Positions 5,525 to 44,437 of a DNA stretch of 64,000 nucleotides are shown one piece after another. Positions within the stretch are counted from its first letter, which is position 1. The number at the start of each line of letters is the position of its first letter. The position numbers and the translations under genes are program-made. The notes under the pieces were generated by a model that had not been told where the DNA came from, searched no databases, and saw only the letters and a list, made by a program, of their open reading frames with translations. The stretch comes from Clostridia bacterium (GTDB taxonomy: Bacteria; Bacillota; Clostridia; Lachnospirales; Lachnospiraceae). The stretch covers positions 1 through 64,000 of the forward strand of contig CAJTAT010000012.1 in NCBI GenBank assembly GCA_910574475.1, written 5' to 3'.

Positions 5525-5571
5525 ATACCTTATATAGTATACCGTATGGAATGAAATACTATATTTTGTGT
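5525..5571 (+). promoter_or_regulatory. pair of NrdR boxes upstream of nrdD
   Basis: Two 16-bp sites resemble the NrdR consensus ACACTATATATAGTGT: ATACCTTATATAGTAT at 5525-5540 and ATACTATATTTTGTGT at 5556-5571. Their starts are exactly 31 bp apart, the three-helical-turn spacing known for tandem NrdR boxes. The second box ends 18 bp before the nrdD start codon, so bound repressor would cover the promoter or initial transcript. The repressor itself is not in this window. Confidence 0.82.
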
Positions 5572-5589: not shown

Positions 5590-7920
5590 ATGGAAAATAA
5601 AGGTAACAGCAGTTACCCTGAGATGATAAAGAAACGGAACGGCACCCCGGTGCCCTTTGATGCAGGGAAGATTCGGGATGCTATCCGCAAGGCCAATGAG
5701 GCGGCTCAGGTAGAAGCTATTTCTCCCCTGCAATTCAATGACCTGGTAGAAGAAATCATTCGCGCTATTCCCGGGGACAAGACTCCACATGTGGAGCAGG
5801 TGCAGGATATTGTGGAGGAAAAGCTCATTAAGGGCGGCTTTGCAAATACGGCGAAAGCCTATATTCTGTACCGGGCGGAGCACACGAAAGTGCGCAAATC
5901 AGAGGCAGATCTGGTGAATATTTACCGGGAGCTGACCTTTACCAGCGCTGCAGACGCAGATATTAAACGGGAAAATGCGAATATTGACACAGATACTTCT
6001 ATGGGAACCATGTTGAAATACGGTTCCGAGGGTGCCAATTATTTTGTGGATAATTATATTCTTCCCAAGGATATTGCGGCGGCTCATATTAACGGTGATA
6101 TCCATATTCATGATAAGGATTTTTATATGCTTACCGAGACCTGCTGTCAGATTGATTTGATTAAGCTGGTAAAGGAAGGCTTTTGTACCGGACATGGATA
6201 TATTCGGGAACCGAATTCCATTAAAACCTATTCGGCCCTGGCCTGTATCGCCATTCAGGCAAATCAGAATGAGATGCACGGAGGGCAGTCGATTCCCAAC
6301 TTTGATTATGCTATGGCTCAGGGTGTGGCCAGGACATTTCGGAAGGAATATTTCAAAGCTTTCGAGAGATATCTTCAGATTAAGCTGGAGTGGAGTGTCA
6401 AGCAGAGCGCTGACTTTATCAAAAGTATGAAAGAGGAAGTTGGCTCGGATATCTCCATGGGAAATATAGAAGCGTATGGCAAGAAAGCTGAGGCTTGGCT
6501 AAAGGAGGGCGGAGCTTCAGAGGAGAGATGCGAAGTCACTCTGGAGAAGTTGAAAAAAGCTCACAGCTGTGCCGCAGACATGGCTCTTCGGGAGACGGAA
6601 TCTGAGACCTATCAGGCTATGGAGGCCCTGGTTCACAATCTGAATACCATGAATTCCCGGGCAGGCGCTCAAGTGCCTTTTAGCTCCATTAATTATGGAA
6701 CGGACTATTCCCCGGAGGGACGGATGGCCATTAAAAATCTGCTGTTGGCTACAGATGCAGGCTTGGGAAATGGGGAGACGCCGATTTTCCCGGTACAGAT
6801 TTTCAAGGTAAAGGAAGGGATCAATTACAATTCAGGCGACCCCAACTATGATCTGTTCCGTCTGGCCATTCGGACTTCCGCCAAGCGGCTGTTTCCGAAC
6901 TTTAGCTTTATAGATGCGCCATTTAATCTTCAATATTATAAAGAGGGCGATTATAATACAGAGATTGCCTATATGGGATGCAGAACCCGTGTCATGGGCA
7001 ACCATTACGATCCCAGCCGGGAAGTGACCTGCGGACGGGGAAATTTAAGCTTTGTATCCATTAACCTGCCCCGTCTGGGAATCAAGGCTCATCAGGATTT
7101 GGATGCCTTTTATGACAGCCTGGACAAATGCATTGACCTGGCATGCCGTCAGCTTCTTCATCGCTTTGGAATCCAGAGCAGTAAGAAGGTGCGTAATTAT
7201 CCGTTTTTGATGGGACAGGGCATTTGGATGGATTCTGATAAGCTGGATTTGGATGATTCCATTGGCGAGGTGCTAAAGCACGGAACCTTGAGCGTAGGTT
7301 TTATCGGCCTGGCAGAGACTCTGGTAGCTCTCACCGGAAAGCATCACGGGGAAAGCCCTGAGAGTCAGAAGCTGGGACTTGAGATTATCGGGCATATGCG
7401 TCAGCGGATGGATGAGAAGTCTGAGGAGACGGGAATGAATTTTACTCTTCTGGCGACTCCGGCAGAGGGCCTGTCAGGACGTTTTGTGAGAATTGACAGG
7501 AAACGGTTTGGAGAGCTTCCGGGTATCACGGATCGGGAGTATTACACCAATTCCTTCCATGTGCCGGTCTACTATCCTATCCGCGCTTTTGACAAGATTC
7601 GCCTGGAGGCTCCTTATCATGCCCTTACAAATGCAGGACATATCAGCTATGTAGAGCTGGACGGAGATACCACAAAGAATCCACAGGCTTTTGAGGCCGT
7701 GATCCGCTGTATGAAGGAGGAGGGTATCGGCTATGGCTCTGTGAATCATCCGGTCGATCGAGATCCGGTCTGCGGCTATACAGGTGTGATTGATGAGGTG
7801 TGCCCCCGCTGCGGCAGACGGGAGGGCGAGGCTGTCCCGGTTGAGAAGCTTCGGGAGCTTCGGAAAAAATTCCCGGATGTACCCGCCTATGCTTTGCCGG
7901 ATAAAGTAAGGATGCTATAA
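5590..7920 (+). CDS. nrdD: anaerobic ribonucleoside-triphosphate reductase, main chain without glycyl radical site
   Basis: Class III ribonucleotide reductase large polypeptide (776 residues), which makes dNTPs without oxygen. An ATP-cone covers roughly residues 10-105 (allosteric activity site), followed by the ten-stranded NRDD barrel. The YMGCRTRV segment with Cys464 is the likely thiyl-radical cysteine. The C-terminal zinc-type cysteines lie at 728, 738 and 741 (VCGYTG...CPRCG). Family members continue with the glycyl-radical motif RxTGYL. Here the chain ends after about 35 unrelated residues, and the motif is encoded by the next cistron. ATG 5590 is preferred over in-frame ATG 5503, because GGGGGAGG precedes 5590 and 5503 lies upstream of the NrdR boxes. 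Confidence 0.93.
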   Translation: MENKGNSSYPEMIKKRNGTPVPFDAGKIRDAIRKANEAAQVEAISPLQFNDLVEEIIRAIPGDKTPHVEQVQDIVEEKLIKGGFANTAKAYILYRAEHTKVRKSEADLVNIYRELTFTSAADADIKRENANIDTDTSMGTMLKYGSEGANYFVDNYILPKDIAAAHINGDIHIHDKDFYMLTETCCQIDLIKLVKEGFCTGHGYIREPNSIKTYSALACIAIQANQNEMHGGQSIPNFDYAMAQGVARTFRKEYFKAFERYLQIKLEWSVKQSADFIKSMKEEVGSDISMGNIEAYGKKAEAWLKEGGASEERCEVTLEKLKKAHSCAADMALRETESETYQAMEALVHNLNTMNSRAGAQVPFSSINYGTDYSPEGRMAIKNLLLATDAGLGNGETPIFPVQIFKVKEGINYNSGDPNYDLFRLAIRTSAKRLFPNFSFIDAPFNLQYYKEGDYNTEIAYMGCRTRVMGNHYDPSREVTCGRGNLSFVSINLPRLGIKAHQDLDAFYDSLDKCIDLACRQLLHRFGIQSSKKVRNYPFLMGQGIWMDSDKLDLDDSIGEVLKHGTLSVGFIGLAETLVALTGKHHGESPESQKLGLEIIGHMRQRMDEKSEETGMNFTLLATPAEGLSGRFVRIDRKRFGELPGITDREYYTNSFHVPVYYPIRAFDKIRLEAPYHALTNAGHISYVELDGDTTKNPQAFEAVIRCMKEEGIGYGSVNHPVDRDPVCGYTGVIDEVCPRCGRREGEAVPVEKLRELRKKFPDVPAYALPDKVRML

Positions 7921-7934
7921 AATTTAAAAGATAT

Positions 7935-7964
7935 AAAAATATAGAAAAATATAGAAAAATATAG
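7935..7964 (+). repeat. three tandem copies of AAAAATATAG
   Basis: The 10-bp unit AAAAATATAG occurs three times in a row (7935-7944, 7945-7954, 7955-7964). It lies in the 59-nt spacer between the nrdD main-chain stop and the small glycyl-radical cistron, directly before the latter's Shine-Dalgarno sequence. The spacer is almost pure A/T and should be unstructured, which would favour ribosome loading. Confidence 0.8.
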
Positions 7965-7979
7965 AAGGAGAATAATTGT

Positions 7980-8135
7980 ATGACAGGAAAGGTATTGCCT
8001 CAGGGCGACATGGTAGGAGAAAGTGTAAAATTTGACCGTATTCGCAGAATCACCGGATATCTGGTAGGAACTACAGATCGGTTTAACAACGCAAAGCGGG
8101 CGGAGGAGCAGGACCGCGTAAAGCATGGATTTTAA
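7980..8135 (+). CDS. separate glycyl-radical domain of anaerobic ribonucleotide reductase
   Basis: A 51-residue ORF holding the C-terminal glycyl-radical segment normally fused to NrdD. After a 17-residue leader it reads DRIRRITGYLVGTTDRFNNA and ends in a KRAEEQDRVKH-type tail, the usual extreme C-terminus of clostridial NrdD. Gly26 in RITGYL is the predicted radical glycine. It has its own AAGGAG (7965-7970) 9 nt before ATG 7980 and lies in a different frame from nrdD, with a 59-nt spacer; a single sequencing error does not explain it. It overlaps the nrdG start by 11 bases. It should dock into the NrdD barrel after activation by NrdG, comparable in principle to the YfiD/GrcA spare part for pyruvate formate-lyase. 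Confidence 0.88.
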   Translation: MTGKVLPQGDMVGESVKFDRIRRITGYLVGTTDRFNNAKRAEEQDRVKHGF

Positions 8136-8652
8136 GCTTCAGATCAGTGGGATTGTTCATGAATCCATTGTGGATGGCCCGGGCTTATGCTATGTAATCT
8201 TTGTTCAGGGCTGTCCCCATCACTGTCCGGGCTGTCACAATCCCCAGACCCATGATTTTTCCGGCGGCAGGGCGGCAGACCTTAAAGAGCTTTTGAAGGA
8301 AATCCGGGAAAATCCGATTCTCACAGGAGTGACCTTTTCCGGCGGAGAGCCCTTCTGTCAGCCGGAAGCACTGTGTGAGCTGGGACAAGAGATCAAGGGA
8401 ATGGGCAAGCAGCTGACCGTTTATACTGGTTACACCTATGAGCAGCTTATGGAGCTGGGGAAGGAGCGACCGGCTGTCCTGGAGCTTTTGAAGCTGGCGG
8501 ATCTTCTGGTAGATGGTCCATATCTGGAAAAGGAACGGGATCTTACGCTGCTCTATCGGGGAAGTACAAATCAGCGAATGATAGATTTGAAAAAGACACG
8601 GGAATGTGGCAGAGTATCACTCTATCAGGAAGATTATTATCAGGGACTTTGA
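8125..8652 (+). CDS. nrdG: anaerobic ribonucleotide reductase activating protein
   Basis: A 175-residue radical-SAM activase that cleaves S-adenosylmethionine to create the glycyl radical. The cluster motif appears as CPHHCPGC (CxxxCxxC) at about residues 30-37. The SAM-binding FSGGEP motif is near 73-78, and VYTGYTYEQL follows. The length is typical. The start ATG 8125 lies inside the last codons of the small glycyl-radical ORF, with GGAGGAG about 16 nt upstream. The two are therefore translationally coupled, which fits a need for matched amounts of activase and radical domain. Confidence 0.95.
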   Translation: MDFKLQISGIVHESIVDGPGLCYVIFVQGCPHHCPGCHNPQTHDFSGGRAADLKELLKEIRENPILTGVTFSGGEPFCQPEALCELGQEIKGMGKQLTVYTGYTYEQLMELGKERPAVLELLKLADLLVDGPYLEKERDLTLLYRGSTNQRMIDLKKTRECGRVSLYQEDYYQGL

Positions 8653-8670
8653 GAGGTCCCTGATTTTTTT
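8641..8670 (+). terminator. nrd operon terminator
   Basis: Perfect 7-bp stem CAGGGAC (8641-8647) / GTCCCTG (8656-8662), followed by ATTTTTTT. The hairpin overlaps the nrdG stop codon. Confidence 0.9.
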
Positions 8671-8718
8671 ACAGTAAGACTTTTTGTAATGGTTTATATA
8701 CAGAAAGGATGGGGCTAT

Positions 8719-9126
8719 ATGAGAAAATTTGACTATTCTTTTTTGATCAATGGCTTATTGCCTGCTAATCTTGTGAATTTAACCGCAAACATATCTGCGC
8801 TTAAAACAATGGCAGGTGTACGGAAAGACGAATACAAACAGATCTTTACTGAGCTTGAAGCTGTTGCAAAGATACAATCGATTAAGAGTTCCAATGCTAT
8901 TGAGGGAATTGTAACAAGTGATGAGCGTATCGCTGCCATTGTAAATCAAAATAGCGCCCCTCTTAATCATAACGAGGCAGAGATTGCAGGTTATAGGGAT
9001 GCATTAAATGAAATCCATTTAGGCTTTAAACATATTGATTTCAGAGAGCGTGCTTATATGGATGCGCGTAGCGACGCAAATGTTAATCAACTTTTGTTGA
9101 TTCCCTGCGTTATTTTAGCAGATTGA
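8719..9126 (+). pseudogene. Fic-family protein, N-terminal fragment
   Basis: The N-terminal part of a Fic/DOC AMP-transferase-type protein. It contains the SNAIEG motif, which fits the (S/T)xxxE(G/N) inhibitory helix of class II Fic proteins, near residue 56. After HIDFRER it jumps to AYMDARSDANVNQLLLIP, which in complete relatives lies about 70 residues further on, so an internal deletion is likely. The frame then ends at a TGA (9124-9126). The catalytic-loop half is found at about 10790-11116, after an intervening gene. ATG 8719 is chosen over 8689 because the family start motif MRKFDYSFL fits there. Confidence 0.72.
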
Positions 9127-9423
9127 CATTTCCTATGACCTCGTAGGGATATTCCCCGCATCCCTGATCAATGACCTGCAAAATGGAGAAACGGCATAGC
9201 CCGCAAGTTACATAGTTTCCCGAAAACATTTCTAATACTGCCTTATGAATGCCACCCAAAGGGAGCACTTTTGCTGTATGGAAAAGATACAAATTTATGT
9301 ATTTCGCTATGCTTTCGTGTTATAATTTATTTTAAGTTATTGCATTTACATTGAATTATGGCTTTTAATATCAGCAATTAAATTTTGATGGTCCAAGATG
9401 CAAATAGAAGTGGAGGTCACGAA
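9127..9423. other. intergenic 5' part of the segment splitting the Fic gene
   Basis: About 300 bases separate the Fic N-terminal fragment from the ATP-binding gene. A 60-codon open frame occurs on the minus strand (9110-9292), with a regular composition (phrases such as VLPLGGIHKAVLEMFSGNY). It could be a remnant of a mobile-element gene, but I do not recognise it. The stretch 9300-9400 is A/T-rich and holds TATAATTTAT near 9320, a possible -10 region for the downstream gene. No inverted or direct repeats mark an obvious boundary. Confidence 0.4.
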
Positions 9424-10776
9424 ATGGCAGAGAGTCAAAATATAGAATGGAAAGAGTCGTGGCGCGATGAATATCTTAAATGGATATGTGGATTTGCAAA
9501 CGCACAGGGTGGAAAAATATATATTGGAACACGAGATGATGGAACTGTAATTGGGGTGAGTAATCCCAAAAAGCTGTTAGAAGATATTCCTAACAAAATT
9601 CAAAACAAATTGGGAATTATGGCAGATGTGAATCTGCTTACTAAAGGTGGACTAGATTATATTGAGATTGTCGTTAGTCCGTGGTCATTTCCTGTAAACT
9701 ATGATGGAGAATACCATTATAGAAGTGGTAGTACAAAACAGATGCTGCGAGGAAATGCATTGACCAATTTTTTAATGTCAAAGACTGGATTAAAGTGGGA
9801 TGCAGCAACAATATCTAATATTGGGATAGATGACTTGGATCAGGAGAGTTTTGATATTTTTAGAAGAGAGGCTCTGCGAAGCGGGCGGATGTCAAAAGAA
9901 GATTTGGACATTGAGAATACCGAACTGTTAGAGAAACTGGACCTGGTAGTAGACGGAAAGCTTAAGCGTGCAGGTGCATTGTGTTTTTACCGTAAACCGG
10001 AAAAGGTTATTGGTGGTTGTTATGTGAAAATAGGCAAATTTGAAGGCAGTGAATTATTATATCAGGATGAAGTACATGGCTCTCTGCTTATTTTAGCAGA
10101 TAGAGTAATTGATCTGATTTATCTAAAATATCTGAAGGCAGCAATTTCATATTACAAGGAAACAAGAGTAGAGACCTATCCTTTTGCCCGTGATGCTGTA
10201 AGAGAGGCCGTTTTTAATGCTTTAATTCACTGTAATTGGGCTGACAATGTTCCAGTACAGATACGCATTGAAGATAATGCCATGTATGTTAGTAATTGTA
10301 GTATGCTACCCTTTGGCTGGACAGTTGAGACACTTTTGAGTGCTCATGTATCAAAACCATACAATCCGGACATTGCACGAGTATTTTATCGTGCAGGATA
10401 TATTGAAAGCTGGGGACGTGGGATTCAGAAAATTTGTGATGCCTGCAAAAATCTCGGAGCGAAAGAACCGGAGTATATTGTTCATGGTGAAGACATAATG
10501 GTGAAATTTTCTGCGCTTCAAAGTACAGAAATATTAAATTCCAAAGCCCAGGATGTCACAAAGGATGTCACAAAGAATGTCACAAAGGACATCTCAATAG
10601 AAGTAAAAATATTAGCGTTGCTTAAAGAAAATGCATCCATCACTACCACTGAAATGGCTGAAAGGTTGTCTGTTAACAGACGTACCATTCAAAGAGGTCT
10701 GGATGCGTTGAAGGCCAAAAGGAAAATAGAACGTAAAGGTGGTAAGAGATACGGATATTGGGAAATTTGTGAATAG
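9424..10776 (+). CDS. AlbA_2/HATPase_c_4 ATP-binding regulator with C-terminal winged helix
   Basis: A 450-residue protein of the Schlafen-AlbA_2 plus GHKL-ATPase type. The N-terminal AlbA_2 domain starts with ESQNIEWKES and contains GFANAQGGKIYIG (residues about 5-130). The HATPase_c_4 domain with VREAVFNALIHCNW and GRGIQKI spans about 250-365. The C-terminal HTH (about 390-450) contains TTTEMAERLSVNRRTIQRG. Before the HTH, VTKDVTKNVTKD is a short repeat typical of this family. These proteins are thought to be DNA-binding regulators, often in accessory DNA. ATG 9424 has GGAGG seven to eleven bases upstream, better than ATG 9385. The gene interrupts a Fic gene and probably arrived with the insertion. 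Confidence 0.82.
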   Translation: MAESQNIEWKESWRDEYLKWICGFANAQGGKIYIGTRDDGTVIGVSNPKKLLEDIPNKIQNKLGIMADVNLLTKGGLDYIEIVVSPWSFPVNYDGEYHYRSGSTKQMLRGNALTNFLMSKTGLKWDAATISNIGIDDLDQESFDIFRREALRSGRMSKEDLDIENTELLEKLDLVVDGKLKRAGALCFYRKPEKVIGGCYVKIGKFEGSELLYQDEVHGSLLILADRVIDLIYLKYLKAAISYYKETRVETYPFARDAVREAVFNALIHCNWADNVPVQIRIEDNAMYVSNCSMLPFGWTVETLLSAHVSKPYNPDIARVFYRAGYIESWGRGIQKICDACKNLGAKEPEYIVHGEDIMVKFSALQSTEILNSKAQDVTKDVTKNVTKDISIEVKILALLKENASITTTEMAERLSVNRRTIQRGLDALKAKRKIERKGGKRYGYWEICE

Positions 10777-43912: not shown

Positions 43913-44437
43913 ATGAAAAAGGACAGCATAGAAGATTTGATAAATCGTGCCAGAGCTTGTGATGGGGAAGCCTTTGTAGAGCTAATGGAACGTCATAAGC
44001 AGTCCATGTATAAGATTGCAAAAGCTTATTTGAAGCAGGAAGAAGATGTGGCAGATGCTATGTCAGAGACAATCTTAGACTGCTTTGAACACTTGGAAAA
44101 TTTGAAAGAAGCTCAGTATTTTGGCACTTGGCTTGTGCGGATTCTGATTAATAATTGCAAGAACATGTTGAAAAAGAGACAGAGATTTGACTGTACCGAT
44201 GGGATCGAGGACACTTTACAGAGTGTATCTATGGAGGAGGAAGGAACGAGAGCCTTTCTGGACTATCTGCAACCCTTAGAAGAAGAGGACAGAATTTTAA
44301 TGATACTGTTTTACGTATGGGGATTTCGTGTCAGGGAAATCGCAGAACTTCTCCATATGAAAGAGGCAACTGTAAAGTCAAGGATGCAGAGGGGAAGAGG
44401 AAAGATCAAGAAAACTTTTTTCCCTCTGGTAGTATGA
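43913..44437 (+). CDS. ECF-type RNA polymerase sigma factor
   Basis: A 174-residue sigma-70 family protein. Region 2 (about 15-85) includes EEDVADAMSETILDCFEHLENL and region 4 (about 115-170) includes GFRVREIAELLHMKEATVKSRMQRGRGKI. It is followed after 51 nt by a large membrane-anchored protein that is probably its anti-sigma partner. It is distinct in sequence from the sigma factor at 41760. The ribosome site AAGGAGGAG lies before an out-of-frame ATG and ATG 43913. Confidence 0.9.
   Translation: MKKDSIEDLINRARACDGEAFVELMERHKQSMYKIAKAYLKQEEDVADAMSETILDCFEHLENLKEAQYFGTWLVRILINNCKNMLKKRQRFDCTDGIEDTLQSVSMEEEGTRAFLDYLQPLEEEDRILMILFYVWGFRVREIAELLHMKEATVKSRMQRGRGKIKKTFFPLVV

Follow-up and report, generated by a model that had tools for sequence, protein, structure and literature searches.

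A putative split class III ribonucleotide reductase with its glycyl-radical loop encoded as a separate 51-residue protein

Within the window (the whole 64,000-nucleotide stretch of DNA analysed here), we identified an operon composed of an nrdD main chain, a small gene and nrdG (Table 1). The main chain comprises an ATP-cone, a catalytic barrel with an MGCR finger loop and the zinc half of the glycyl-radical domain, and it lacks the radical loop. The small protein carries a loop of this kind, with the expected radical glycine at residue 26 (codon 8055–8057). As the first-pass annotation of this DNA had stated, the small ORF lies 59 nt downstream of nrdD, overlaps the start of nrdG (by 11 nt) and possesses its own AAGGAG ribosome site (7965–7970, 9 nt upstream of the ATG). 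The spacer contains repeated AATATAGAA units, as judged by eye. A search for promoters inside the operon returned six promoter-like matches, compared with 5.1 in shuffled sequences. Downstream of nrdG, a short ORF (8689–9126) ends early and is followed by an ORF (9385–10776) for what we take to be an AlbA-type regulator.

Table 1. Coordinates of the nrdD operon and its associated features in the window.
Feature	Position	Strand	Basis
Two NrdR-box-like sites, 31 bp apart, upstream of nrdD	5525–5540 (4 mismatches), 5556–5571 (2 mismatches)		consensus scan
nrdD main chain, 776 aa	5590..7920 (ATG 5590, stop 7918–7920)	+	ORF and domain scan
Zinc-type cysteine region of the main chain, residues 728–745, begins CGYTGVIDEVCPRCGRR, three cysteines	7771..7824	+	alignment to P. 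copri NrdD 8p23
Main-chain tail, GEAVPVEKLRELRKKF...	7825..7917	+	tail kind compared across main chains
Spacer between nrdD and small gene, 59 nt, AT-rich	7921..7979	+	sequence reading
Small gene, 51 aa, glycyl-radical loop RRITGYLVG and C-terminal tail	7980..8135	+	ORF, domain scan, alignment
nrdG, radical-SAM activase	8125..8652	+	ORF and domain scan
Terminator-like hairpin and T run at nrdG end	8639..8664	+	hairpin scan

The sites upstream of nrdD were scored against what we take to be the NrdR-box consensus. At three or fewer mismatches, the 64 kb contain two sites, each matching on both strands; the one outside the operon, an imperfect palindrome (ACACTTTACAGAGTGT, 44211–44226), is probably a chance match. 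When 32 nrdD loci were scanned at up to 4 mismatches in 16, an NrdR-box-like site was found upstream of the gene in 22, against 0.01–0.11 expected for each from simple letter shuffles, and was absent in 10. The scan for the window's gene started 33 nt inside the gene, as may also be the case for others.

Domain searches confirmed that the glycyl-radical part is encoded apart from the main chain, as had been proposed from the reading frames. The main chain matched PF13597 (NRDD) over positions 1–531 only (E 1.7e-189), so the NRDD catalytic domain is present, and the ORF at 7980–8135 complemented it at positions 532–562, which correspond to the glycyl-radical loop (E 2.9e-8). Coverage of NCBIfam PRK07111 was likewise complementary, with the main chain spanning positions 3–711 and the small protein positions 708–744. 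The loop is thus not part of the main polypeptide, which stops at profile position 531, and is present in the operon as a separate ORF. The earlier description of a main chain that ends after its zinc-type cysteines without a radical loop also stands, with only the loop and C-terminal tail being detached. Neither the 51-mer (E up to 1) nor four separate relatives (E up to 0.1) matched the pyruvate formate-lyase glycine-radical domain PF01228, and all matched PF13597 only. NrdG scored 141 bits against TIGR02491 (cut-off 126), which identifies the radical-SAM activase.

The main chain aligns with NrdD from P. copri (8p23) through the zinc region up to residue 705. In the P. copri enzyme, the glycyl-radical domain is described as residues 676–739, with the radical on Gly711 (PMC11226230). 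Because the alignment ends at residue 705, the break falls inside the radical domain, between its zinc half and the radical loop. Three of the four P. copri zinc cysteines are kept on the window's main chain and an aspartate occupies the fourth position, a pattern common to one-chain relatives of this branch; the small protein contains no cysteine. The finger loop reads MGCRT and belongs to the MGCR single-cysteine type, for which an association with formate as reductant has been described (PMC9669993). The window's enzyme resembles one-chain NrdD from P. copri and phage T4 (1h78) in its catalytic domain, MGCR motif, zinc region, loop sequence and NrdG, and carries an ATP-cone as P. copri NrdD does. 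In contrast to these one-chain enzymes, its radical loop and tail are the product of a separate gene.

Breaks in the reading frame of known genes are frequently errors, and we considered whether this locus is a pseudogene or an assembly artefact. The small ORF was found in 14 of 299 family genomes, and an independent search for the main chain recovered the same 14; in the genus, both the small ORF and the truncated main chain were present in the same 9 of 16 genomes. For eight of the nine split genus members, dN/dS of the small gene ranged from 0 to 0.15 in all 28 pairs. The motif RIRRITGYLVG was invariant in all 16 aligned small proteins (16 of the 20 collected). Because both parts co-occur in the same genomes, with differing spacers and under purifying selection, the split is not a sequencing error, and conservation in many species together with this selection already refutes the pseudogene or assembly explanation, to which we assign a negligible probability. 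The split arrangement extends well beyond the window's family. The first-pass annotation had called for a search of short ORFs in relatives and had also raised the prospect that re-sequencing would restore one continuous frame. Presence of the arrangement in the family, the genus and further groups excludes its absence from relatives, and its conservation with varying spacers excludes a restored frame.

The same comparisons bear on a second alternative, in which the two ORFs, adjacent and in the same operon in the window, yield one chain after all via frameshifting, stop read-through or splicing over the gap. However, spacer length and frame vary between relatives, and all 20 small ORFs examined begin with an ATG of their own and show a ribosome-site match. 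The window's spacer shows no unusual RNA structure (z −0.23). Furthermore, the main chain and small gene are ~429 kb apart in G781 and lie on different contigs in seven genomes (G805, G727, G919, G613, G852, G651 and S. noxia), which refutes a single chain in the unlinked cases; elsewhere we consider it very improbable. We rejected sequencing error, pseudogene, frameshift and read-through on the basis of conservation with varying spacers, the separate ribosome sites, selection and the unlinked genes. A candidate nrdG start precedes the end of the small gene by 8–20 nt in 26 of 32 loci, and the overlap is absent in the other six. Such an overlap would fit coupled translation of the radical protein and its activase.

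Elsewhere in the window's genome there is a second nrdD, which is complete and has its own nrdG. The need for the split enzyme therefore cannot be inferred from this genome. Complete NrdD was also present in 9 of the 13 other split genomes sampled from the family and in all eight other split members of the genus (G001 being counted in both samples), so that the family mostly has the split enzyme as an additional ribonucleotide reductase (RNR). The first-pass annotation had anticipated that a second complete nrdD might do all the work; such a gene does exist here. We tested 37 genomes with a separate radical protein for the catalytic subunits of class I and II RNR (PF02867), and in 15 of them split NrdD was the only RNR found, with no PF02867 match and no complete NrdD (G028, G198, G045, G916, G802, G777, G826, G849, G938, G828, G919, G941, G613, G781 and G852). 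The monomeric class II enzyme RTPR (TIGR02505) was absent from all 14 of these genomes that were searched, i.e., all but G941. Two of the 15, G828 and G781, are single contigs that are 99% complete, and the other 13 are drafts of 86–99% completeness (86% for G045).

Ten named genomes were also examined for NrdD, separate loop genes and PF02867. In Selenomonas noxia ATCC 43541, Selenomonas sp. FOBRC6 and Anaerovibrio sp. RM50, we identified only a truncated NrdD and a separate loop gene, with no PF02867 match. The contig and coordinates of RM50 are those of G941, and RM50 is thus not an independent case. Anaerovibrio slackiae and a Megamonas genome contained both split NrdD and a PF02867 match. 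Contig C3 of RM50 (G941/G979) carries two truncated NrdD main chains (112339–114584 and 165113–166978), ~53 kb apart and placed in different branches of the tree, which appear to share a single radical gene.

Class III RNR makes DNA precursors and is sensitive to oxygen. Glycyl radicals ordinarily belong permanently to the enzyme that uses them, and its chain is cut by oxygen at the radical glycine. One explanation of the small protein is that it is a mere spare part that rescues oxygen-cleaved NrdD, with the truncated main chain a decayed or regulatory remnant and the complete second NrdD doing the work. The complete NrdD and NrdG of the window's genome are in accordance with this explanation, as are the complete NrdD in most split genomes of the family sample and the occurrence of single-gene relatives of the small protein in complete-NrdD genomes. 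However, no other RNR was found in the 15 genomes listed above, neither the main chain nor the small gene occurs without the other in the sampled family, purifying selection acts strongly on the small gene and the main chain keeps its catalytic motif. We regard this explanation as unlikely. Because the loop gene is conserved and selected and the split pair is the only RNR found in 15 of 37 genomes, these observations argue strongly for function as a split enzyme, in line with what the first-pass annotation had suggested.

Judged from sequence, the operon very probably encodes a split class III RNR that consists of truncated NrdD and a 51-residue loop protein activated by NrdG, and our best reading is an obligate split enzyme with a spare-part-like radical subunit. 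The 51-residue protein would supply the loop and tail missing from the main chain, and most likely docks where one-chain NrdD has its loop, beside the finger-loop cysteine. NrdG would then most likely install the glycyl radical on the bound small protein, from which the radical would most likely pass to the finger-loop cysteine. We infer that the split pair binds, receives the radical and forms dNTPs. The radical loop would thus reside on a separate protein that may be replaceable, and for some anaerobes the enzyme seems to be the sole RNR. This arrangement offers a natural test system for whether radical pieces are exchanged after oxygen damage, for whether the activase acts on the free peptide or only on the complex, and for the route from spare part to essential subunit.

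Small autonomous proteins with a glycyl-radical loop are represented by GrcA/YfiD and phage T4 Y06I, which are described as spare parts of pyruvate formate-lyase and also occur in phages (PMC8683613). The window's 51-mer is likewise a small autonomous protein with such a loop, and its kind also occurs in phages. Unlike GrcA/YfiD, it matches PF13597 rather than PF01228, and in sole-RNR genomes the loop has no other source, so that the protein would be obligate rather than a repair part. Detectable radical installation on YfiD is reported to require the cut partner enzyme (PMC8683613), and by analogy a requirement for the main-chain partner would be the natural expectation here. The YfiD authors also speculated on spare parts for other glycyl-radical enzymes (PMC8683613), and the small NrdD-type proteins are strong candidates for such spare parts of class III RNR.

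A different precedent is provided by Pseudomonas NrdJa/NrdJb, a split class II RNR, which a 2015 paper called the only split RNR found outside viruses (PMC4520616). As in the window, a C-terminal part of the RNR is a separate subunit encoded in the operon. However, the Pseudomonas enzyme is a B12-dependent class II RNR in which cysteine-bearing NrdJb does thiol exchange and NrdJa holds catalysis and cofactor, whereas the window's parts are those of class III and its small protein has no cysteine. Fragmented nrdD genes are also described in phages, where they are split by introns, inteins or homing endonucleases, and in one phage without a known cause (PMC3653736). In contrast to these breaks, the 59-nt gap in the window could not accommodate an intron, an intein or an endonuclease gene, and a break of this type recurs within the radical domain across many species. 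Searches of open-licence papers showed no class III RNR with a separate radical domain and no NrdD spare part.

The small radical proteins collected fall into two types. Type A proteins contain ~50–70 residues and include the window's family (f1) as well as f128, f31 and f34. Type B proteins contain ~90–100 residues with an extra N-terminal part and include f62, which matches Selenomonadaceae records, and other families. Among the best 80 of 585 confirmed matches in named genomes, 79 were ORFs of fewer than 400 codons, of which 78 had the loop in frame and eight had nrdD in the fetched locus; here and in the viral loci below, a nearby nrdD means a match to the window's main chain. Coexistence of complete NrdD with a separate radical protein was seen in Adlercreutzia hattorii, Enterorhabdus sp. 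P55, Ruminococcus flavefaciens FD-1, Raoultibacter timonensis and strain VE202-01, and also in seven f17 genomes, G361 and G917; G574, an eighth f17 genome, has its NrdD divided between two contig pieces. Loop proteins that are more distantly related accompany complete NrdD in G634, G734, G785, G883, G809 and G760. The small proteins that coexist with complete NrdD are candidates for NrdD spare parts, and such single-gene relatives make the GrcA-like exchange idea more plausible. The A. hattorii genome (G982) has two small radical-loop ORFs (C1:68836–68928 and C1:617450–617545) in addition to complete NrdD, and one of the two scores below the family cut-off.

Separate radical genes also occur in viral contigs. 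Among the best 80 of 301 matches, 74 were separate small ORFs (seven with nrdD in the locus) and six were one-chain genes, in a ranking that favours small ORFs because the query was small. We scanned the neighbours in six viral loci (20 proteins). L271, L272, L276 and L291 contained an endolysin, holin, integrase or DNA polymerase, L281 a DNA methyltransferase, and L315 nothing recognised; L271 and L291 also carry truncated nrdD. Searched against 50,697 annotated phage records, the 51-mer gave matches in 14, a count that includes one-chain genes. Stand-alone NrdD-type radical genes adjoin endolysin genes in L276 (5001–5129), whose contig also has an integrase, and in L272 (5001–5135). In L291 (5001–7368), the small radical gene precedes truncated nrdD, the reverse of the order in the window, and lies downstream of a phage DNA polymerase. 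Eggerthella phage EL753P1 (OP172808) has a weak radical-loop match at 7095–7172, where no gene is annotated. We give roughly even chances to a broader proposal, namely that exchangeable radical cofactor proteins form a general class III RNR system in many anaerobes and phages. Such a system would have begun as repair of oxygen-cut NrdD and repeatedly become obligate after loop loss, with the main chain permanently “cut” and a 50–100-residue piece replaced; the phage copies would keep or seize dNTP synthesis.

Trees of the main chains, from which the radical loop was left out, required six changes between split and one-chain states, and well-supported branches forced at least five and at least four changes in the two trees, respectively. 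Of the 72 main chains collected, the first tree left out five near relatives; the second left out 11 main chains and gained nine from viruses. Neither tree includes six complete canonical NrdD loci (L072 and L359 to L363), which ORF picking missed or shortened. An alignment of 60 of the 76 usable type B proteins (A3) underlies no result reported here. A single origin of the split was rejected when split rows were constrained to one clade, under a model without site mixtures and with long branches present; one origin followed by re-fusion or gene transfer is a possible alternative. Loss of the loop seems to have happened several times among the main chains, and we infer that it did so because an autonomous small protein could replace the loop.

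Against this reading, the second tree placed the one-chain NrdD L175 inside a split group. The main chain of G651 ends in FERIHRITE and that of L269 in SERILRIRR, where one-chain relatives read FERIRRITGYL; each is accompanied by an intact separate loop gene and is grouped with a one-chain NrdD. By sequence resemblance, these ends look like freshly cut remnants of the radical loop. A GRREGEAV... tail is found after the zinc region in all 28 type A main chains, in none of 18 type B and in 2 of 26 one-chain enzymes, as scored with a loose expression. In six of eight representatives, the tail is similar to the beginning of the small protein, each time in the same register (shuffle p 0–0.07, uncorrected and not independent); in the two viral ones, it aligns best in other registers (p 0.74 and 0.05). 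The tail of the window's main chain is thus a possible remnant of the lost radical loop. These resemblances suggest that the separate copy came first and that the main chain's own loop may then have decayed. Among the one-chain genes, the NrdD at L140 (G361:C108) has an in-frame TAG mid-gene, which may represent an error, decay or a recoded stop.
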